Shown here piece by piece: positions 11,657 to 37,328 of a DNA stretch of 64,000 nt (position 1 is the stretch's first letter; the number at the start of each line of letters is the position of its first letter). The DNA lies in NCBI GenBank assembly GCA_944324405.1, contig CALUWF010000001.1, positions 1 through 64,000 on the forward strand. Direction: 5' to 3'. A program made the position numbers and the translations under genes. The notes under the pieces were generated by a model. That model was not told where the DNA came from. It was given only the letters and a program-made list of their open reading frames with translations, and did not search any database. The DNA comes from Candidatus Gastranaerophilales bacterium. GTDB lineage: Bacteria > Cyanobacteriota > Vampirovibrionia > Gastranaerophilales > Gastranaerophilaceae.

Positions 11657-11980
11657 ATGATAATGAAATATCAAGAATTAATTAACAGCGGCATAAAAAA
11701 TCTCAGAAAAAGTCACAATTTAACACAGGAAGAATTTGCGGAAAAAATAGGCATAAGTATACAAGGGCTCTCTAACATTGAAAGAAACCGTTACCAGCCG
11801 ACATCGGATACGGTGGATAAAATATGCAGTGTCTTTAAAATAACGCCTTATGAACTGATTTTGCCAAAGTCGGACGATTGCGAAGACTTGATTAAAAATA
11901 TCACCCTTATGCTCAAACGCTGTACAAAAAGGCAGTTGAAAAAGATATATAAAATTATTGATATACTGATTAAATTTTAG
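11657..11980 (+). CDS. XRE-family HTH transcriptional regulator
   Basis: A 107-aa DNA-binding protein. The N-terminal Cro/C1 helix-turn-helix reads IRKSHNLTQEEFAEKIGIS-like, with IQGLSNIERNRYQPTSDTVDKIC as the recognition and scaffold helices. A short C-terminal extension rich in Lys and Cys follows, with no clear effector domain. A TATTAT lies five bases before the ATG and no Shine-Dalgarno is obvious. It stands alone between a divergent membrane-protein gene and hisS, so its target is unknown. An internal ATG at 11663 is an alternative start. Confidence 0.85.
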   Translation: MIMKYQELINSGIKNLRKSHNLTQEEFAEKIGISIQGLSNIERNRYQPTSDTVDKICSVFKITPYELILPKSDDCEDLIKNITLMLKRCTKRQLKKIYKIIDILIKF

Positions 11981-12021: not shown

Positions 12022-13245
12022 ATGATTAAAGCACAGCGCGGAACAAAGGATATAATCGGACAAGACACGCTCAGTTGGCAAAAAATACAACAAAACGCAA
12101 AAGAGATTTTTCAAAATGCAAACTATAGCGAAATAAGGACACCCATTTTTGAAGCAACGGAACTCTTTAAACGCGGGGTGGGCGATTCAACGGATATTGT
12201 CAATAAAGAGATGTATACTTTTTGTATAGGCGGCGCAGATAAAAACGAAAATTCCATAACTCTTCGCCCTGAAAACACCGCAGGGGTAGTAAGAGCGTAC
12301 ATTGAACACAACATTTCAAGGCAATCTCCGCCGCAAAAATTTTGGTACTTTGGCCCGATGTTTCGCTATGAACGCCCGCAGGCCGGACGCCAAAGACAAT
12401 TTCATCAAATCGGAATTGAACTTTTCGGCGCAAAAGAGGCTTCGGCAGATGCGGAAGCAATCCTTATCGCGCAAGAGTTTTTAGGCTCATTGGGACTTAA
12501 TAATCTTGAAGTTGAAATCAATACTCTCGGCTGTCAAAAATGCCGTGAAAGCTATAAAAAGGCAATTAAGGAAGTCCTTAAGCCTTATATTGGCGAACTT
12601 TGCGAAGATTGCTCGGTAAGGTTTGAAAAAAATCCTCTAAGAATGCTTGATTGCAAAAACGAAAACTGTCAAAAGGTTTTTGAGCGCGATGAAATCAAAA
12701 AAGTGGTGCTTGGAGATTTTGTATGCGATGAGTGCAAAGCTCATTTTGATGAAGTTTTGGGATATCTTGATGTGCTCGGCGTCAAATACAACCGCAATAA
12801 AATGCTTGTAAGGGGGCTTGATTATTACAACCGCACGGTTTTTGAAATAAAAAGCTCCGCTTTAGGCTCACAAAGTGCGGTTTGCGGCGGAGGAAGATAT
12901 GACGGACTTGTTGAAATGCTCGGCGGCACGCCGACCCCTGCCGTTGGCTGGGCAATGGGCGTTGAAAGACTTTTTGAACTTATTAAAAAAGTTGAGCCAA
13001 AAAAGCTTGATTACTTTGTGGTTTCAAAATTTCCCAAAGAAGCCCTAAAGTTGTGCCAAAAATTAAGACGCAAAGGCCTTAGCTGTGATTTTGACATGCA
13101 AAACAGAAAATTTGCAAAACAGCTTGAAAAAGCTGCAAAAATTGCAAACTATGCAATAATTATAGGCGAAGAAGAGCTTGAAAAAGGCTTCTATACCGTT
13201 AAAGACCTCTCTTGCGGCACGCAGGAACAAAGAAGCGAAATTTAG
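12022..13245 (+). CDS. hisS: Histidyl-tRNA synthetase
   Basis: Charges tRNA-His. The 407-aa protein is slightly shorter than the usual 420-430. The class II motifs are present: RGTKDI at the N-terminus, motif 2 FRYERPQAGRQRQFHQ, the histidine-specific VRGLDYYNRTVFE, and motif 3 around PAVGWAMGVERL. The C-terminal anticodon-binding domain (KAALKLC-like, then NYAIIIGEEELEKG) is short. The gene is preceded by AAGGAAAG. Confidence 0.96.
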   Translation: MIKAQRGTKDIIGQDTLSWQKIQQNAKEIFQNANYSEIRTPIFEATELFKRGVGDSTDIVNKEMYTFCIGGADKNENSITLRPENTAGVVRAYIEHNISRQSPPQKFWYFGPMFRYERPQAGRQRQFHQIGIELFGAKEASADAEAILIAQEFLGSLGLNNLEVEINTLGCQKCRESYKKAIKEVLKPYIGELCEDCSVRFEKNPLRMLDCKNENCQKVFERDEIKKVVLGDFVCDECKAHFDEVLGYLDVLGVKYNRNKMLVRGLDYYNRTVFEIKSSALGSQSAVCGGGRYDGLVEMLGGTPTPAVGWAMGVERLFELIKKVEPKKLDYFVVSKFPKEALKLCQKLRRKGLSCDFDMQNRKFAKQLEKAAKIANYAIIIGEEELEKGFYTVKDLSCGTQEQRSEI

Positions 13246-27586: not shown

Positions 27587-30013
27587 TTGCAAACAAGAAT
27601 TAAAAAAGGCTATAAAGCCAATACTGCACGCGGTTTTACCCTTGCCGAACTGCTTGTAATCTTACTCATCTCATCCATAATTATGGTCGTGCTCGCACCT
27701 GTTGTAAGAAAAAAACAAAATTCAAACACAGGCTCCAATTCTTCGGCTCGCTCCCAGGTTCAAAGTGTTACATATACCTATAATTCAACAAATGCGGAGT
27801 GTTCCCGCTCTGCTTCGGATAATACTTTAAAATGCAATTTTAAAGTTCCGCAAGGCGTAAAATTTCTTAACATTCATATGGTAGCAGGCGGAGGCGGGGG
27901 CGGCGGAGCTTCAACTCCTACAATAAAAAGCGGCAATTCTTTAACTCACGGCGCATCTTCTCAAAAAAACTTAACAATTAGCGAAGGTATGCGAAATGTT
28001 AAAATAGCCTTCCTTACAGGCGGAGGCGGCGGCGGAGGCGGCGGAGCATGGGCACAAACAACTGGAGATACCCTATCTCAGACTTACTGTGATAAATTTA
28101 GCGCTAAGTATTTAACGGCGGAGCAAAACGGCGGAAAAGCCGTGTGCGTTACAAAGTATAACATTGGGGATATTCCGGCAACTGCCGAAGATGGCACCCC
28201 TGGGCCCGCAAATGGCGGAAGGGCGCCATCTGTAAAGTGGATGTCTACCAGTAAATGGTGCTCCGAAGATAAACCTTTATGCTGCTGGGGCGGCAAAGAC
28301 GGGGGCGGAAGAACTGGACAAGCCACAAACTGCGGTCCCGGGCCAAAAGATTACGGCGGATGTTACAGAACATTATGCACTTGGCATGCTGCGGATGTTT
28401 CTTGTAAAAATTTAGCATACGGAGGAACAAAAGCAGGCGATTGGAGATTACCGACAATTGAAGAACTTAAGGCTTGGTCACTCCATATTGACGAAATTAA
28501 TAATAGTACCAATGTAACTATACGTAATAACGGCTTATTGCTTTGCCACTGGTCAAAAGGATTGGGAGCTATTCAGTGTGAAAACACAGAGTGCTGTTCG
28601 TATTGGGGAGCAAAACCGTATAATGTATGGTCATCAAAAATTGATGAATCACTTGGCTATGGATACAATTACCACCTTGTAACCGGAGATTTTATAGGGC
28701 CGAACGGAAATGCGTACGGGCACCCAAATTCAACACGCTGTGTACTTGAGGTAAAAAATCCGTTTTCATCATACGCAGGCGGCGGAGGCGGAGCAGCTCC
28801 TTATCTTAAAAACTATACCATCCCTCAAGATATCATTGAGCAATGCACAGGCGGTAAAATAGTCCTCTATGCGGGTGCAGGCGGAAACGGCAGCGCAAGC
28901 GGCGCATCCTCCGGCAGCTCCGGCACCGCGGGCAACGCAGGCGGCACATCCTATATATATGTCTACAATAGCTCAAATCAACTTAAATGGGGTTTCCAAG
29001 TGCCCGGCGGAAACGGCGGAGGCAGAGCAACTTCTGCATCAGCAGGTGCGGCAGGTGCACAAAAAGCCATAAATACTTGCAAAATCTATAACGGCTCCTC
29101 TTGGCAGGATACAAATTGTACAAGCGCAGGACTTGCAGGAGAAGCCGGCACTTCAGCAACTAATATAATCGGCACGGGTGGTGCAAACGGAGGCAGGGGC
29201 GGACATTCATACTACAATACTTCCACTGCCTCAGGCGGCGGCGCAGGAGCCAATTCCCCTAACCAAAACGGTACCGATGCATCCAGAAACGGTGCCGGCG
29301 GGGGCGGCGGGGGCGTCTTAATGATAGATGATGTAATCTACAAAGGTACGGGCGGCAAAGGCTCTGTTGGTGTTGCTCAAATAACGTATGATATTGCTTA
29401 TCAGGCAGCCGCAGGCGGCGGCGGGGGCGGCGGAGCCTATGCTTATGTTGAAAACGTACCCGTAACCCCCGAAAAAACCTACACAGTTAAAGTAGGCGGC
29501 GGCGGAAACGGCGGAAGCGTTAACAATGACGGCATAGCAGGCGGCGCAACATCGGTAATGTATGATGGCGGAACATACATTCTAAATGGCGGCAGCGGAG
29601 GCAAAAAAGGCACCTCGGCAACCCAAAGCGCCACAGCAATACAGGGCAGCGCAGGTGCTGCGGGCACAACAAATATCCCTTCAAAATTCACAAAAGCCGC
29701 TCAAGCAGGCACAAATGCCACTGTTTCAAATAATGTCAGTATAGGCGGGAACGGCGGCAAATCAGGTATCAGCACCCCCGGGGGCTGCGGCGGCTTTATA
29801 AGCACAAGCAGTTGCTCTAATGCTTCTTCAAACGGAAGTTCTCCGGCCTATGTTGCTCCGGGTGACTTATACAATTCTAAAAACTATGGAAAAGCAGGCT
29901 CCGGCGGCGGTGGGGGCGGCTGGAAAATGACAACTTCATCTGATTCCGGCCCCGGGGGCGGTGCCGTTGGAATTCCGGGCTATGTTTACATTTATTGGAT
30001 AAAGTATGAATAA
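27587..30013 (+). CDS. Prepilin-like glycine-rich surface protein, copy 1 (type A)
   Basis: An 808-aa protein. It starts at TTG 27587, supported by GGAGG six bases upstream. A type IV prepilin signal (ARG/FTLAELLVILLISS) gives an N-terminal membrane helix. Then follows a strand-rich segment of phage tail-tip type (FKVPQGVKFLNIHMVAGGGGGG), a Cys-rich module (about 165-390) with CVTKYN, CCW, WRLPTIEELKAWS and STRCVLEV between two poly-Gly runs, and a long Gly-rich C-terminal half (YTVKVGGGGNGG) ending in GYVYIYWIKYE. The module resembles FISUMP/DUF1566 domains. It is predicted to be a minor pilin or surface adhesin. A terminator-like hairpin separates it from copy 2. Confidence 0.8.
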   Translation: MQTRIKKGYKANTARGFTLAELLVILLISSIIMVVLAPVVRKKQNSNTGSNSSARSQVQSVTYTYNSTNAECSRSASDNTLKCNFKVPQGVKFLNIHMVAGGGGGGGASTPTIKSGNSLTHGASSQKNLTISEGMRNVKIAFLTGGGGGGGGGAWAQTTGDTLSQTYCDKFSAKYLTAEQNGGKAVCVTKYNIGDIPATAEDGTPGPANGGRAPSVKWMSTSKWCSEDKPLCCWGGKDGGGRTGQATNCGPGPKDYGGCYRTLCTWHAADVSCKNLAYGGTKAGDWRLPTIEELKAWSLHIDEINNSTNVTIRNNGLLLCHWSKGLGAIQCENTECCSYWGAKPYNVWSSKIDESLGYGYNYHLVTGDFIGPNGNAYGHPNSTRCVLEVKNPFSSYAGGGGGAAPYLKNYTIPQDIIEQCTGGKIVLYAGAGGNGSASGASSGSSGTAGNAGGTSYIYVYNSSNQLKWGFQVPGGNGGGRATSASAGAAGAQKAINTCKIYNGSSWQDTNCTSAGLAGEAGTSATNIIGTGGANGGRGGHSYYNTSTASGGGAGANSPNQNGTDASRNGAGGGGGGVLMIDDVIYKGTGGKGSVGVAQITYDIAYQAAAGGGGGGGAYAYVENVPVTPEKTYTVKVGGGGNGGSVNNDGIAGGATSVMYDGGTYILNGGSGGKKGTSATQSATAIQGSAGAAGTTNIPSKFTKAAQAGTNATVSNNVSIGGNGGKSGISTPGGCGGFISTSSCSNASSNGSSPAYVAPGDLYNSKNYGKAGSGGGGGGWKMTTSSDSGPGGGAVGIPGYVYIYWIKYE

Positions 30014-30102: not shown

Positions 30103-32502
30103 ATGGAAAATCACAAACAAAAAGCATTTACTCTGGCAGAGCTGACTTTGGCAATTGTCATAATTTCAATACTGATCGTCGGTTTTGCGCCGGTGATTAC
30201 AAAAAGACTTCAGGATAATATAAAAGTCAACGCAAATACACAGGGTGAATATAAACTCTATCTTTTTAGCGAATGCGAAGAAACAGAGGGCTGTACACTC
30301 GCCACCGGTGTTAATGCGTGCGACTGCAAGTTTAGCGCCCCACAGGACGCTAAAATACTCAATGCCGTAATTGTGTCGGGAGGCGGCGCAGGCGGAAATG
30401 CAACCGAGTCATGGGCAAAAAGTATTTCAGAGTCCCACGCCTCTGAAAACGCAAACAGTCGTAAAAACTTGCCGATTGTACAAGGCATGCATGATGTTAA
30501 AATAACCTACATCTCAGGCTCCGGAGGAGGAGGGGGAGGAGGAAGCTGGGATGAAATATGGAGTGATACTCCGCCGGCTTCTCAGGCAGATTGTGATCCG
30601 TATGATGCAAAGTTTTTAACTGCAGAACAAAATGGCGGATATGCGGCATGTGTTACAAAATATAATGTCGGGGATATATCAAAGGCACAAAATTGGGGTG
30701 TTGCACCTACTGTTGTTTTAAATAAGACAGGGGTAAAGTGTACAGGTGATAATTGTTGTTGGCATGGAAGAAACGGAAGAACATCCGCAACTTGCACAAA
30801 TGAAAACGGAAGTTATGGCGGATGTAACAGGTCTGTGTGCAAATATTATGCCGCAAAAGAATCATGTGAAACACTTACTTTTCCGTCTGCTGCAAAACAG
30901 AGGGAATGGAGGCTTCCGACGGTTAAAGAAATGACTGCCTGGAGTGCTGTGTTTAATACAATAAGCGCTTATCAAAAAGATAACGGTATAATGATATGCG
31001 GAGGTATGTCAGGTTTTGGTGTTGCACAATGCCATCACCAGTATTCTTGTCCGGGTACACAGGCGGGATATTGCACACCTGATCATACATGGTCTGAAGA
31101 TTACGATGCATCGGTCGGAGAATTTGGGTATTCTTCATTTGATTGCAATAATGGTAATTTCTATCTTGAATTGAGAAGTAAACAATATGCGCAGTCAACC
31201 AGATGTATTTTTGCACCTGAGGTTGTACGTCCTTCTCTCTCCGGAGGAGGGGGCGGGGGTGCACCGTTTATTAAAAACTATACAATTCCGGATGATGTAA
31301 TTAAAAGTAATGTAGGGGGTACGATTATACTTTATTCGGCACCGGGAGGTAAAGGCGGGGCAAGTGCTTCATCTCAGGGCGCAAAAGGCTCAGATGGCTC
31401 CGATGGCAAAGAAGCCCTTATCGAAGTGAAAGACAAAAACAACAAAACAATCTGGGCGCTTAAGGTCCTCGGCGGCAAAGGCGGCAAGGGCGCAACAAAC
31501 AGCTCAGGCGGCACAGGCGGCGCACAAAGCGCACAGAATAACTCCTGTCAAATTTACGAGAATAACGCATGGAAAAACGTCAATTGCACAGGCTACGGAC
31601 AAAAGGGCTCAAGCGGCGCAAAAGTAAGCAGTGCCGATGAAACAACCGCGGCACAGGGGGGTAGCGGCGGCGGGAGCGCATATAATTCCGACAGCTACAG
31701 CGGCGGCGGACGCGGCGGCAGCGCAAGCGTTCCCTCAGGCGGCGCAGGCACAATCTACGGTGCCGGCGGCGGAGGCGGAACAGTAGGCTTTGACTCCTCA
31801 GGAAACCCGAAAAAAGGCGGCGGTGCCAAAGGCTATATGGGCGCAATCACAATTGAATACAAAATATGGGAAAAATCAGCCGCAGGCGGAGGCGGCGGAG
31901 GCGGTGCTTTTGCAAAAGTCCGCGACATAAATATTACGCCCGGCGGCACATATGACATCAGAATAGGCGGCGGAGGCACGCCGAGCGGATATTTTGGCAA
32001 TGACGGAAACAACGGCGGCGATTCATTTATTAAATTCGGCACGCTCTCATACATCCTTAGCGGCGGAAAAGGCGGTAAGGGCGGCAAAATCGACCCTACA
32101 GGCACAACACTGACCCATGGCGGCGGAGGTGCAGGCGCAACAACAACGCTCAGCAGCGCAAATAAAGCCGATAGCGAATATCACAACGGCAAAGCAGGCA
32201 GTGCGGGCGCAAATGTATCTAATGTTGCAAATCGCGGCGGACGCGGCGGCGAATCGGGTATAAAAACCCAGGGCGGCTGCGGCGGAATGTTTTCAGACCC
32301 TGCAATATGCACAAATCCAAATGCAAATGGGATTTCCATACCCTTTGTTGCCCCGGATAATATTACACAAAATGTAGACTACGGTACTGCGGGCGCAGGC
32401 GGCGGGGGCGGAGGCTGGAATTATGACGGCAGCCGCGGCATTTCAGGCTGGGGTGCAAAAGGACAGGACGGCTACGTTTATATATACTGGTCAAAAAATT
32501 AA
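30103..32502 (+). CDS. Prepilin-like glycine-rich surface protein, copy 2 (type B)
   Basis: A 799-aa protein with the same architecture as copy 1. The prepilin motif is KA/FTLAELTLAIVIIS, with Ala instead of Gly before the cleavage point. FSAPQDAKILNAVIVSGGG starts the glycine-rich part. A Cys-rich module (about 136-386) carries CVTKYNVGDI, CCWHGRNG, WRLPTVKEMTAWS and STRCIF. The C-terminal half contains KADSEYHNGKAG and ISIPFVAPDN, which it shares with copy 4, and ends GYVYIYWSKN. The DNA encoding the Cys module is an apparently identical copy of that in gene 3. A GGGAG ribosome site precedes the ATG. Confidence 0.8.
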   Translation: MENHKQKAFTLAELTLAIVIISILIVGFAPVITKRLQDNIKVNANTQGEYKLYLFSECEETEGCTLATGVNACDCKFSAPQDAKILNAVIVSGGGAGGNATESWAKSISESHASENANSRKNLPIVQGMHDVKITYISGSGGGGGGGSWDEIWSDTPPASQADCDPYDAKFLTAEQNGGYAACVTKYNVGDISKAQNWGVAPTVVLNKTGVKCTGDNCCWHGRNGRTSATCTNENGSYGGCNRSVCKYYAAKESCETLTFPSAAKQREWRLPTVKEMTAWSAVFNTISAYQKDNGIMICGGMSGFGVAQCHHQYSCPGTQAGYCTPDHTWSEDYDASVGEFGYSSFDCNNGNFYLELRSKQYAQSTRCIFAPEVVRPSLSGGGGGGAPFIKNYTIPDDVIKSNVGGTIILYSAPGGKGGASASSQGAKGSDGSDGKEALIEVKDKNNKTIWALKVLGGKGGKGATNSSGGTGGAQSAQNNSCQIYENNAWKNVNCTGYGQKGSSGAKVSSADETTAAQGGSGGGSAYNSDSYSGGGRGGSASVPSGGAGTIYGAGGGGGTVGFDSSGNPKKGGGAKGYMGAITIEYKIWEKSAAGGGGGGGAFAKVRDINITPGGTYDIRIGGGGTPSGYFGNDGNNGGDSFIKFGTLSYILSGGKGGKGGKIDPTGTTLTHGGGGAGATTTLSSANKADSEYHNGKAGSAGANVSNVANRGGRGGESGIKTQGGCGGMFSDPAICTNPNANGISIPFVAPDNITQNVDYGTAGAGGGGGGWNYDGSRGISGWGAKGQDGYVYIYWSKN
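30508..31259 (+). repeat. 752-bp direct repeat, copy 1 (Cys-rich module of gene 2)
   Basis: Apparently identical to 32935-33686 (offset 2427 bp). It begins in the TACATCTCAGG before the first poly-Gly run and ends in the second G-rich run. The flanks diverge at once on both sides. The segment uses more GGA/GGG glycine codons, while the flanking repeats prefer GGC. Confidence 0.92.
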
Positions 32503-32511
32503 GGAGAAATT

Positions 32512-34941
32512 ATGCACGCAAAATTCAGTGCGCATACAACAAAAGCGCGCAAAGGCTGGACACTTAGTGAACTTCTTGTAAGCACGGTGATTGTAGGAAT
32601 TATTCTTGTTGTACTTGCACCTGTGCTATCCCGAAGATTTGAAGAAGACATCAGAACCGGCGCCGCACAAAATGATACTCGGCTGTTCATATACGATGAA
32701 AATGATCCTGACTGTACAAGTACTCAAAATAATTCGCTTGTGTGCAAATTTGTTCCTCCCGCAGGCGTAAAGATGATTAATGCCGTCATTGTTTCAGGCG
32801 GTGGAGGCGGTGCGGGCGCAACGGTACCCACAGTTGTCAGTGATAAAATTGTTACCGTCGCAAACACAAGCACAACGGGAAGCCTAAAGAAAACAATTAA
32901 AATTACAAGAGGAATGAAGAATGTAAGAGTCAATTACATCTCAGGCTCCGGAGGAGGAGGGGGAGGAGGAAGCTGGGATGAAATATGGAGTGATACTCCG
33001 CCGGCTTCTCAGGCAGATTGTGATCCGTATGATGCAAAGTTTTTAACTGCAGAACAAAATGGCGGATATGCGGCATGTGTTACAAAATATAATGTCGGGG
33101 ATATATCAAAGGCACAAAATTGGGGTGTTGCACCTACTGTTGTTTTAAATAAGACAGGGGTAAAGTGTACAGGTGATAATTGTTGTTGGCATGGAAGAAA
33201 CGGAAGAACATCCGCAACTTGCACAAATGAAAACGGAAGTTATGGCGGATGTAACAGGTCTGTGTGCAAATATTATGCCGCAAAAGAATCATGTGAAACA
33301 CTTACTTTTCCGTCTGCTGCAAAACAGAGGGAATGGAGGCTTCCGACGGTTAAAGAAATGACTGCCTGGAGTGCTGTGTTTAATACAATAAGCGCTTATC
33401 AAAAAGATAACGGTATAATGATATGCGGAGGTATGTCAGGTTTTGGTGTTGCACAATGCCATCACCAGTATTCTTGTCCGGGTACACAGGCGGGATATTG
33501 CACACCTGATCATACATGGTCTGAAGATTACGATGCATCGGTCGGAGAATTTGGGTATTCTTCATTTGATTGCAATAATGGTAATTTCTATCTTGAATTG
33601 AGAAGTAAACAATATGCGCAGTCAACCAGATGTATTTTTGCACCTGAGGTTGTACGTCCTTCTCTCTCCGGAGGAGGGGGCGGGGGAGCGCCGTTTGTTA
33701 AAAATTACTCTATCCCTGATGACATAATAAAAAACAATATTGACGGCACAATTAAACTCTACGCTGCCGCAGGCGGCACAGGCGGCGCAAGTGCTTCATC
33801 TCAGGCAGGCAAAGGCTCTGACGGACAGCCGGGCAAAGAATCTTATATAGAAGTCAGAAACAAAAGCGGCGCGCTTGTCTGGGGATTAAAAGTACAGGGT
33901 GCAAACGCCGGTAAAGGCGCGACAAGCACATCGGCAGGCAGCGGTGCCGCACAAAAAAGCGCCGCATCATGTCAGGTTTATGAAGGCAGCTGGAAAAACA
34001 TCAGCTGCTCGGGTGCCGGCGCAAGAGGCACAGACGGAACAACTCTTGAAAATTCAAACGAAACATCTGTCGCGCAGGGCGGCACAGGCGGCGGTGCAGC
34101 CTACAGTAATGACGGTTATCAAGGCGGCGGCATAGGCGCGGATGCAGCAAATGTAAACGGTACAAAAGGCTCGCTCTGGGGTGCAGGCGGAGGCGGCGGC
34201 ACAGTGGGCTTTGATGCTGATAATAACCCAAAAAAGGGTAAAGGTGCAAACGGAGCAAACGGCGCCGTTGAAATTAAATACGACATTACCTATGAAGCCG
34301 CAGCCGGCGGCGGAGGAGGCGGAGGCACTTTTGCAAAAATTTCAAATATCGAAGTAATAGGACTTAGGGAATATACAATCAAAGTCGGTGCAGGCGGAAA
34401 CGGGGGCACAATTTCAGCCCCCGGAAGCGCAGGCGGTGATTCATCCATAGAATTTGAAGGCTCGACGCACACTGTCTATGGCGGTAAAGGAGGAAATATC
34501 GGTACATCGCAAACCGAAACACAAAATGCAATACAAGGCAAGGGCGGCACAGCAGGCACATTTTCAAATGGCATTAACAGCTCTGATGTACAAAAGGGCG
34601 AAAACGGCGAGGATGCAAGCGCGATTACTCCTGATGAAGCCGCAGGAATTTACGCGGGTTACGCAGGAGGCACGGGCGGTAAATCCGGCACCGGGACTAA
34701 AGGCGGCTGCGGCGGGTTGTTTATAAATACTTCAATCTGTACAAATAACAATATAAACGGAGCGAATGCACCGAATTTTGAAGCACCGTCAGGTATATTT
34801 AAAAGCGTAAGCTACGGCTCGGCAGGTGCTGCCGGTGCCGGAGGAGGTTGGAGTTGGAATTCAACAACATACCCAAATCCCGGCTCCGGCGGCAAAGGCC
34901 AAAACGGATATGTGTATTTATATTGGACAAAACAGGAGTGA
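32512..34941 (+). CDS. Prepilin-like glycine-rich surface protein, copy 3 (type A')
   Basis: An 809-aa protein starting 9 bases after copy 2. The prepilin signal RKG/WTLSELLVSTVIVG resembles copy 1 (LLV...VVLAPV). FVPPAGVKMINAVIVSGGGGG begins the tail-tip-like region. Its Cys-rich module is the same as in copy 2, while its C-terminal half (GTSQTETQNAIQGKGG) resembles copy 1. It ends GYVYLYWTKQE. The mix of type A ends with a type B centre points to gene conversion. Predicted surface or pilus-tip protein. Confidence 0.8.
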   Translation: MHAKFSAHTTKARKGWTLSELLVSTVIVGIILVVLAPVLSRRFEEDIRTGAAQNDTRLFIYDENDPDCTSTQNNSLVCKFVPPAGVKMINAVIVSGGGGGAGATVPTVVSDKIVTVANTSTTGSLKKTIKITRGMKNVRVNYISGSGGGGGGGSWDEIWSDTPPASQADCDPYDAKFLTAEQNGGYAACVTKYNVGDISKAQNWGVAPTVVLNKTGVKCTGDNCCWHGRNGRTSATCTNENGSYGGCNRSVCKYYAAKESCETLTFPSAAKQREWRLPTVKEMTAWSAVFNTISAYQKDNGIMICGGMSGFGVAQCHHQYSCPGTQAGYCTPDHTWSEDYDASVGEFGYSSFDCNNGNFYLELRSKQYAQSTRCIFAPEVVRPSLSGGGGGGAPFVKNYSIPDDIIKNNIDGTIKLYAAAGGTGGASASSQAGKGSDGQPGKESYIEVRNKSGALVWGLKVQGANAGKGATSTSAGSGAAQKSAASCQVYEGSWKNISCSGAGARGTDGTTLENSNETSVAQGGTGGGAAYSNDGYQGGGIGADAANVNGTKGSLWGAGGGGGTVGFDADNNPKKGKGANGANGAVEIKYDITYEAAAGGGGGGGTFAKISNIEVIGLREYTIKVGAGGNGGTISAPGSAGGDSSIEFEGSTHTVYGGKGGNIGTSQTETQNAIQGKGGTAGTFSNGINSSDVQKGENGEDASAITPDEAAGIYAGYAGGTGGKSGTGTKGGCGGLFINTSICTNNNINGANAPNFEAPSGIFKSVSYGSAGAAGAGGGWSWNSTTYPNPGSGGKGQNGYVYLYWTKQE
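32935..33686 (+). repeat. 752-bp direct repeat, copy 2 (Cys-rich module of gene 3)
   Basis: Second copy of the segment at 30508-31259. Both ends lie in or next to DNA coding for poly-glycine, so G-rich tracts bracket the exchanged cassette. Confidence 0.92.
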
Positions 34942-34944
34942 TAA

Positions 34945-37328
34945 ATGATATTAGTCAAAATCAAAACACAAAGGGGTTTTACTCTTGCAGAACTTACACT
35001 TGCAGTTTTTATAATTTCAATTTTAATTGTCGGCTTTGCACCAATTCTGACAAAAAGAATTCAGGATAACATAAAGGTATCAAACGCACTTTCAGCCGAA
35101 GGGGTTATGTATCTTTACGAAGAATGTGCGGACAAAAGCGAGTGTATGCCGGCAGCCGACGGATCGCGTACATATGATTGCAAATTCAGCGCTCCGGCAA
35201 ATGCAAAAACTATAAGCGCAGTGCTTGTTTCGGGCGGAGGAGGCGGTGCGGGTGCAACTGAAGCTGTTGTTACGCCTTATAACAAAACTGTTGCAAATAC
35301 AACAAACGGACAAAGTCAAAAACAAGAAATAAACATCGTCACAGGGATGGCTGACGTGACTGTGGAGCACATTAGCGGCTCCGGAGGAGGCGGCGGAGGG
35401 GGAAGCTGGGCTCAAAAAGCAGGGGGGCACCCACATCCCAAGCTGACTGTGATCCTTACAATGCAAAGTTCTTAACTGCCGCGCAGAATGGAGGCAGGGC
35501 GGTTTGCGTAACGAAATATAATATCGGAGATATTCCCAATGCGCCAAACGGCGGAATTGCAAACGGGGTAAATGTAGCAAGTGCAGGACAATCCTGCACA
35601 AGCGGAAATTGCTGTTGGAAAGGCAGAACCTCGGACAGCTGTGACAGAGATGGCTGCAATAGAACAGTATGTAACTGGAGGGCGGGGAACACTTCATGTA
35701 ACAATTTGGCATATTCTGGCTCAAATCCCGGTGATTGGCGCTATCCAAAAGAAAGCGAGATGAATGCTTGGAAAAATTATTTTGGAAGTATTAATGTAAA
35801 TTTATACACTAATGGACTTAACTTGTGCGGCAGCTCCAGAAACCAAGGTATGCCGCAGTGTGCAGGCTCATATAAATGTTGGGCTACCGCACAAGAAACC
35901 AAATGTCTGCCAGAATATTATTGGGTGCAAAGTGGCGGTTGGCAAGGCAAAATACCGGTATTTCAGATTGGCGGATGGCTTAACGGCCCCTATCATTATT
36001 ACAATCCGCAACCGTTTTCTGCGCGTTGCGTAACCGAAAAAGCGGCCGAAAAAAATTCGTCCTACTCCGGCGGCGGGGGCGGAGGAGCGCCATTTATTAA
36101 GAACTACATCATCCCTCAGGCTTTAATTCAGAGCGCTATTGGCGGAAAAATTATTCTCCACTCGGCAGCAGGGGCAAAAGGAGGAGATGCGGCAGATAAC
36201 TACGGTAAAAAGGCAGGTAATGGTGAAAACGGAGGTGAATCCTACATTGAAATAAGAGATAAATCAAATCAACTCATCTGGGGATTAAAAGTTCCCGGCG
36301 GAAACGGCGGCGCAGGTGCCGGAGAAAACGCATTCGGAGAAGGCGGAGCACAAAAAGTACAAAATTCTTGTCAAATTTATGAAAACAACTCTTGGAAAAG
36401 TACAAACTGTACAGGATACGGACAAAAAGGTGCAAACGGCAGCAGCATAAGCGGTGCGGATGAAAATACCTGTGCCGCAGGAGGAAACGGCGGCGGCGCA
36501 ATGTATAACGCGCAAAACTACACAGGCGGAGGCAGCGGGGGAAGCAACGGAGCTGTAAACGGCTCAACAGGCACGCTATTTGGTGCAGGCGGAGGAGGAG
36601 GTACCGTCAGTTTTAATTCAAATGGGAATGCGCTTAAAGGCAAGGGCGGCAACGGTGCAAACGGAGTTGTTGAAATAAAATACAATATTAACTCTCAGGC
36701 TGCGGCAGGCGGAGGAGGCGGCGGGGGAAGCTTTGCCAAAGTGAGAAATGTTATAGTCACCCCCGGAAGCACGTATACAATCCGCGTCGGCGGCGGGGGG
36801 CAGGGCGCAAGCGCCTCTTTTAACGGAGGTGACGGCGGTGATTCTTCAATTACCTTTGGCACACTAAACTATACCCTTAAAGGCGGCAAAGGCGGAAATG
36901 TCGGCACGTCCAGCACAACAAACGTGAGCCACGGCGCGGGAGGTGCGGGCGGAAATGTTATTCTAAGTAGCAGTTACAAAGCAGACAGTGAATATCACAA
37001 TGGAGAAGCAGGCTTTAAGGGAACAAATGCCGCAGATGGAAGCAAAAACTCCTGGGGCGGTAGAGGCGGAGAATCCGCAATAAAAATCAAAGGAGGATGC
37101 GGCGGGCTTTACTCAAATTCATCCGTTTGTACAAACCCAAATACAGACGGAATTTCCATTCCTTTTGAGGCACCTGTTGATGTTATTCAATATGTCGAAT
37201 ACGGCTCGGCAGGCGCAGGCGGCGGGGGCGGAGGATGGCACAGCGATATAAGCTTATATCCAAATCCCGGACGAGGCGGAAACGGACAGGATGGCTATGT
37301 TTACATTTACTGGGCAAAACAAAATTAA
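34945..37328 (+). pseudogene. Prepilin-like glycine-rich surface protein, copy 4 (type B'), frameshifted in a G6 tract
   Basis: Starts 3 bases after copy 3. The first frame (34945-35475) encodes the prepilin signal QRG/FTLAELTLAVFIIS, the glycine-rich start and SGSGGGGGGGSWAQKAGG, then stops. The homologous continuation (APTSQADCDPYNAKF onward) is in the -1 frame from base 35427 and stays open to 37328, ending GYVYIYWAKQN. The switch falls in GGGGGG (35422-35427); one more G would restore a 794-aa protein. No other lesion is seen, so a recent slip, phase variation, a -1 ribosomal shift or a sequencing error are all possible. N- and C-termini match copy 2. Confidence 0.8.
35422..35427 (+). other. 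G6 homopolymer at the frameshift of copy 4
   Basis: GCA GGG GGG CAC in the first frame; homology to copies 1-3 resumes in the -1 frame immediately after. A G7 tract would give an uninterrupted gene. Such tracts are classic sites of slipped-strand phase variation and of sequencing errors. Confidence 0.75.

Follow-up and report, generated by a model that had tools for sequence, protein, structure and literature searches.

A shared module in two diverged tandem paralogues

A recent homologous recombination event between two tandem paralogues, here called genes 2 and 3, very probably copied a whole central domain from one gene into the other. In the window (the whole 64-kb stretch of DNA that was analysed), positions 30508-31259 of gene 2 equal positions 32935-33686 of gene 3 at 752/752 positions, and the match ends precisely at those coordinates. 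The features concerned, in window coordinates, are:

27587-30013, + strand: gene 1, with a prepilin-type N-terminus, an Lcl_C-like centre and a Gly_rich_2 C-terminus; kin of a sister-species gene at the pnp locus
30103-32502, + strand: gene 2, architecture as gene 1; same type as gene 4; weakly favoured donor
30508-31259, + strand: module copy 1, within gene 2, comprising the central domain and poly-Gly linkers; exact 752-bp match to 32935-33686
30523-30543, + strand: poly-Gly coding DNA at the left module edge of gene 2, with the edge 15 nt from the tract; gene 3 counterpart at 32950-32970
30799-31104, + strand: Lcl_C-like (C-type lectin fold) match in gene 2 (Pfam PF07603, E 7.8e-5, under the curated cut-off)
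30994-31209, + strand: gene 2 segment equivalent to what is the DGR variable region in related genes, with conserved C...RC[VI] borders
31243-31259, + strand: poly-Gly coding DNA at the right module edge of gene 2, inside which identity stops; gene 3 counterpart at 33670-33686
32512-34941, + strand: gene 3, architecture as gene 1; same type as 96b, a gene of sister genome G007; weakly favoured recipient
32935-33686, + strand: module copy 2, within gene 3; exact 752-bp match, no difference at 118 four-fold sites
33421-33636, + strand: segment of gene 3 equivalent to the DGR variable region, identical to that of gene 2, with conserved C...RC[VI] borders
34945-37328, + strand: gene 4, a family member whose frame is broken near 35415-35430 at a G6 run, giving two ORFs in different frames

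Apart from the module pair, no exact repeat in the window reaches 60 bp; a comparison of nine genes or gene pieces of the family in the same genome gave 28 bp as the next longest exact match. Outside the module, genes 2 and 3 show about 35-75% identity per 60-75-nt window. An earlier note on this DNA had described the module as apparently identical at both sites and the sequence beside it as sharply diverged. The first claim holds at every position and with exact edges, and the sliding-window alignment that the note had proposed as a check bears out the second, with windows of 75 nt mostly 40-65% identical. None of the 118 four-fold degenerate sites within the module differs between the two genes, whereas 21/25 (84%) and 79/127 (62%) of the four-fold sites common to both genes differ in the flanks of the module. 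Constraint at the protein level therefore cannot account for the identity, and the contrast in silent sites indicates a recent event at the DNA level. Searching the whole genome with the module as query revealed no third copy, and a scan of named genomes with the same query returned no relative.

Genes 1-4 probably encode prepilin-signal, lectin-like, glycine-rich proteins of a Candidatus Gastranaerophilales genus, the similarity of the centre to Lcl_C being weak. For the Pfam N_methyl profile (cut-off 21.2), genes 2 and 4 score above the cut-off (23.9 and 24.6) and genes 1 and 3 below it (20.3 and 17.0). The Lcl_C score is 25.2 bits against a curated cut-off of 34.9, and genes 1-3 are all below that cut-off; across the family, the profile matches 19/21 centres at E < 0.01. 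An AlphaFold2 model of the centre reached a pLDDT of 87.8. Foldseek returned nothing significant for this model, its top row being Legionella Lcl_C at E 0.22, and the VIA realignment rows (best Z 8.8) were mostly C-type-lectin-like proteins, including the DGR protein TvpA. Searching PDB sequences with a profile of the centre gave no match. The two ORFs of gene 4 lie at 34945-35475 and 35706-37328; the break between their frames (window 35395-35450, at the G6 run) is compatible with phase variation, decay or sequencing error alike.

Gene types and the probable direction of transfer

The genes were typed with trees of their N- and C-terminal parts that included the sister genomes G003 and G007. 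Genes 2 and 4 group together (49% amino-acid identity in the N-terminal and 58% in the C-terminal part), as the earlier note had proposed. Its pairing of genes 1 and 3 as a second type did not survive the analysis: they share only 35% (N) and 47% (C) identity, and each groups with different sister-species genes. Gene 1 clusters with its counterparts at the pnp locus of G003 and G007 (55-57% amino-acid identity), and gene 3 with gene 96b of G007 (66% N, 57% C).

As the identical centres of genes 2 and 3 sit in flanks of different lineages, one of the two centres has been overwritten. Gene 3 is 66% and 57% identical to 96b in its flanks and just 50% in its centre, whereas gene 2 compared with gene 96a of G007 (44, 50 and 56% for N-terminus, centre and C-terminus) shows no drop at the centre. 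This contrast weakly favours gene 2 as donor and gene 3 as recipient. The module is at most about 50-55% identical at the amino-acid level to every other centre compared.

Genes 2 and 3 are ancient, highly diverged tandem paralogues. We propose that one of them, probably gene 3, recently lost its own central domain and received that of its neighbour, so that gene 2 is the probable source. The route would be gene conversion, most likely dependent on RecA. The tract spans both the constant and the hypervariable part of the lectin-like domain and ends in poly-Gly-coding linkers on both sides, so that a presumed binding head would have been exchanged between two stalks, both presumably displayed at the cell surface. 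Direct support comes from the identity of the module, the silent-site contrast, the sharp edges, the lineage types and an independent chimera of the corresponding genes in a sister species. That a recent conversion moved a central cassette between gene types, as the earlier note had suggested, is thus the best reading of the identity, the silent sites and the different lineage types. Its further suggestion of a mechanism for surface variation is plausible, but the dedicated engine of the family is a DGR.

Poly-Gly DNA at the module edges and probable parallel events in sister species

Poly-Gly coding DNA lies within 15 nt of 5/5 edges, namely the two module edges and three edges scored in the tandem pair 96a/96b of G007. 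As a family-wide exchange border it is unsupported: in within-genome pairs across the family, 17/59 breakpoints fell at most 30 nt from poly-Gly, against 14.6 expected (P = 0.28). Poly-Gly DNA, put forward in the earlier note as the exchange border, thus does lie at both edges of the module but does not mark such borders as a general rule.

The tandem genes 96a and 96b of G007 have different centres and homogenised tracts near nt 312-463 and 1310-1790, with the scored tract edges at most 9 nt from poly-Gly tracts. At the syntenic locus of G003, where synteny with G007 is marked by 89% identity across 6.1 kb upstream, we found a single chimeric gene with an N-terminus and centre of 96a type and a C-terminus of 96b type (N 76% identical to 96a, C 93% to 96b). 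Such a gene is what a crossover between tandem copies would give. The G003 contig, from a short-read assembly, starts at the end of the chimeric gene, and misassembly there is therefore possible. Upstream of pnp, G003 also carries a 182-aa family remnant fused at poly-Gly joints. The contigs of eight sister genomes (G014, G001, G008, G011, G002, G013, G012 and G004) stop at pnp or within about 1.2 kb upstream of it, three of them inside a family gene, so the pnp locus is repeat-rich across the genus. The comparison set comprised one genome per species.

The family is the target of a DGR

About 300 kb from the module, at 336.7-350.0 kb of the same contig (C1), lies a DGR locus. It comprises an RT of DGR type, a gene resembling Avd, a family gene with a broken reading frame, and 31 cassettes. 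The Avd protein matches bAvd (PF22296) above its cut-off and the NCBIfam model DivGenRetAVD below its cut-off; the RT matches RVT_1 above cut-off, and its IGNLTSQ motif is invariant. A scan of named genomes with the RT returned genus mates that are Candidatus Gastranaerophilales MAGs.

The family is a DGR target, and sister species have ordinary template/variable pairs. G003 has a single template at the same site, from which the variable region differs at 21 positions, 20/21 of them at template adenines. In G007, the variable region of the RT-side gene derives from a second template (G007:C1:17075-17348; L153 about 12076-12349), which lies about 193 kb away from the RT; 14/14 mismatches fall at template adenines. 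In the genome that carries the module (G000), no classical single template was found upstream of avd, and an Rfam search of the DGR region returned only a tRNA. The variable segment of genes 2 and 3 has no template in the array of its own genome, where the best cassette is 60% identical and 11/81 mismatches are at A. As this segment matches no cassette and the tract is 3.5 times as long as a variable region, the DGR did not make the tract, and ordinary recombination accounts for the 752-bp event in this DGR-bearing family.

Several observations concern the frames and the RTs themselves. At the 3' end of its variable region, the RT-side family gene goes out of frame in G000, G003, G012 and G005 (breaks at L030 about 11670-11680, L059 about 10365, L062 about 290 and the start of L063) but stays in frame in G007; the frame is also intact in the dispersed variable regions listed. 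For G000 and G003, a short stretch that follows the template site downstream has the same sequence as the -1 form of the RT-side gene. A second RT in G000 (C5; L008 1273-2406), beside a 202-aa ORF, resembles a type III-A retron RT (PADLOC 513.6 bits), and one distant RT relative was present among viral contigs.

An array of 31 cassettes at the template site

The array at the template site (G000:C1:341283-349767; L044), which lies outside the window, consists of 31 complete tandem partial cassettes of 203-231 nt, all in the same orientation. The variable region of the adjacent gene is 98.6% identical to cassette 27 over 215 nt, the next-best cassette reaching 75%, and differs from it by one indel and by mismatches at two positions, each of them a cassette adenine. 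With 2/50 adenines of cassette 27 differing from the variable region, this is fewer than in the sister genomes. A single base (A/G) distinguishes cassette 18 from cassette 23. Around and within the array lie three copies of the conserved RNA-like element found beside the templates of G003 and G007; across seven copies of this element, 12/22 predicted pairs show two-sided changes.

Mean A content is 19.4% in the cassettes compared with 24-29% in sister templates. At codon 5 of the cassettes, all four bases occur at positions 1 and 2, and position 3 is C in 31/31. If AAC codons have been diversified, a low A content and this pattern at codon 5 are to be expected, and the array accordingly resembles an archive of diversified variants that occupies a template site. 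At 20 RT-bearing loci in 19 genomes of other genera we found no tandem arrays. The array is a more novel part of this system than the 752-bp event: no template array of this size was reported in the literature searched, which is not proof of absence, and the search likewise found no DGR papers on Gastranaerophilales or Melainabacteria.

Tentatively, and with a confidence that falls a little short of even, we propose that the DGR has here given up random adenine mutagenesis of a single template in favour of an inherited library. In this proposal, 31 pre-diversified cassettes, framed by covarying RNA elements, would provide the adjacent lectin gene with entire variable regions, and ordinary recombination would spread complete binding heads among paralogues.

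Alternative explanations for the shared module

Exactly 77 nt are common to each of two contig-end pairs, which points to a short-read assembly with k = 77. As such k-mers cannot span a 752-bp repeat, one module copy, or its exact identity, could be an assembler artefact of repeat collapse, strain mixture or bubble removal, the more so as several contigs of the source genome end within family genes and in most sister genomes the contig is interrupted at pnp or a short way upstream, in some cases within a family gene. We consider this unlikely. From assembly-graph reasoning, a tandem A-M-B-M-C loop requires reads at all four junctions, so at least some cells must have the module in both gene contexts; the same assembly also got through an exact repeat of 213 bp within the cassette array; and a mixture of strains would still imply that the module moved between genes. 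Collapse of small differences might nevertheless have inflated the exact 752/752 identity. Marginally less probable again is that both genes received the module from elsewhere, be it a different strain or a paralogue missing from the assembly. Several family genes are assembled only in part, and the module has low similarity to all other compared centres, but two independent imports that happen to share their edges would be a less economical account than at most one import followed by one conversion between neighbours 1.7 kb apart.

Retrohoming could have written the same sequence into genes 2 and 3 from a common template, since this family is targeted by DGRs and both RT and Avd are encoded in the genome. 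A tract of 752 bp compared with a variable region of about 215 bp, the distant best cassette without adenine excess and the lack of any further module copy in the whole-genome search make this highly improbable. Least credible of all is a recent whole-gene duplication followed by fast divergence of the ends, or with strong constraint on the centre: the genes are indeed tandem and co-directional, but silent sites are near saturation in the flanks with none differing in the centre, and the flanks group with different sister-species lineages. Recent recombination between genes 2 and 3 thus remains by far the most probable explanation.

Comparison with known systems

Gene conversion from silent cassettes among surface-protein loci is known from Neisseria pilE/pilS, Borrelia vlsE and Treponema tprK (review PMC4534519). 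As in these systems, a variable segment with conserved borders is transferred here between related loci; as in pilE/pilS and vlsE, an array of partial copies lies beside a full gene in this genome; and, as in pilins, the family has a prepilin-type N-terminus. Unlike in all three, the 752-bp event is an exchange between two full-length genes and does not draw on a silent store, the proteins are large, lectin-like and glycine-rich, and the host is an uncultured gut Gastranaerophilales. In such bacteria, two layers would vary large lectin-like pilin-signal proteins, with recombination swapping whole binding domains and a retroelement rewriting the variable part.

The C-terminal domain of Legionella Lcl (PF07603) resembles the centres in its profile match to most of them and in a fold match (VIA Z 8.1, PDB 8q4e). 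It differs in that genes 1-3 score below the curated cut-off and in that the domain here sits between poly-Gly linkers and Gly_rich_2.

DGRs with DUF1566 targets have been described, Stenotrophomonas sp. SKA14 having two templates (PMC6642488); as many as 6 unique templates are known for DGRs (PMC6642488), and remote DGR targets are also known in T. denticola (PMC4891356). Like the C-type-lectin DGRs of BPP-1 (Mtd) and Treponema denticola (TvpA), the system here combines an RT with IGNLTSQ, Avd and a lectin-fold target, its sister-genome template/variable pairs differ at template adenines, and targets lie far from the RT. Unlike in those DGRs, genes 2 and 3 have no template-derived variable region, and the template site holds 31 tandem, diversified, adenine-poor cassettes compared with at most 6 unique templates in the literature consulted (PMC6642488). 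If the archive reading is true, a DGR template turned tandem archive would connect DGRs with cassette systems of the vls and pilin type, and would make it testable whether the RT or plain recombination moves the cassettes.
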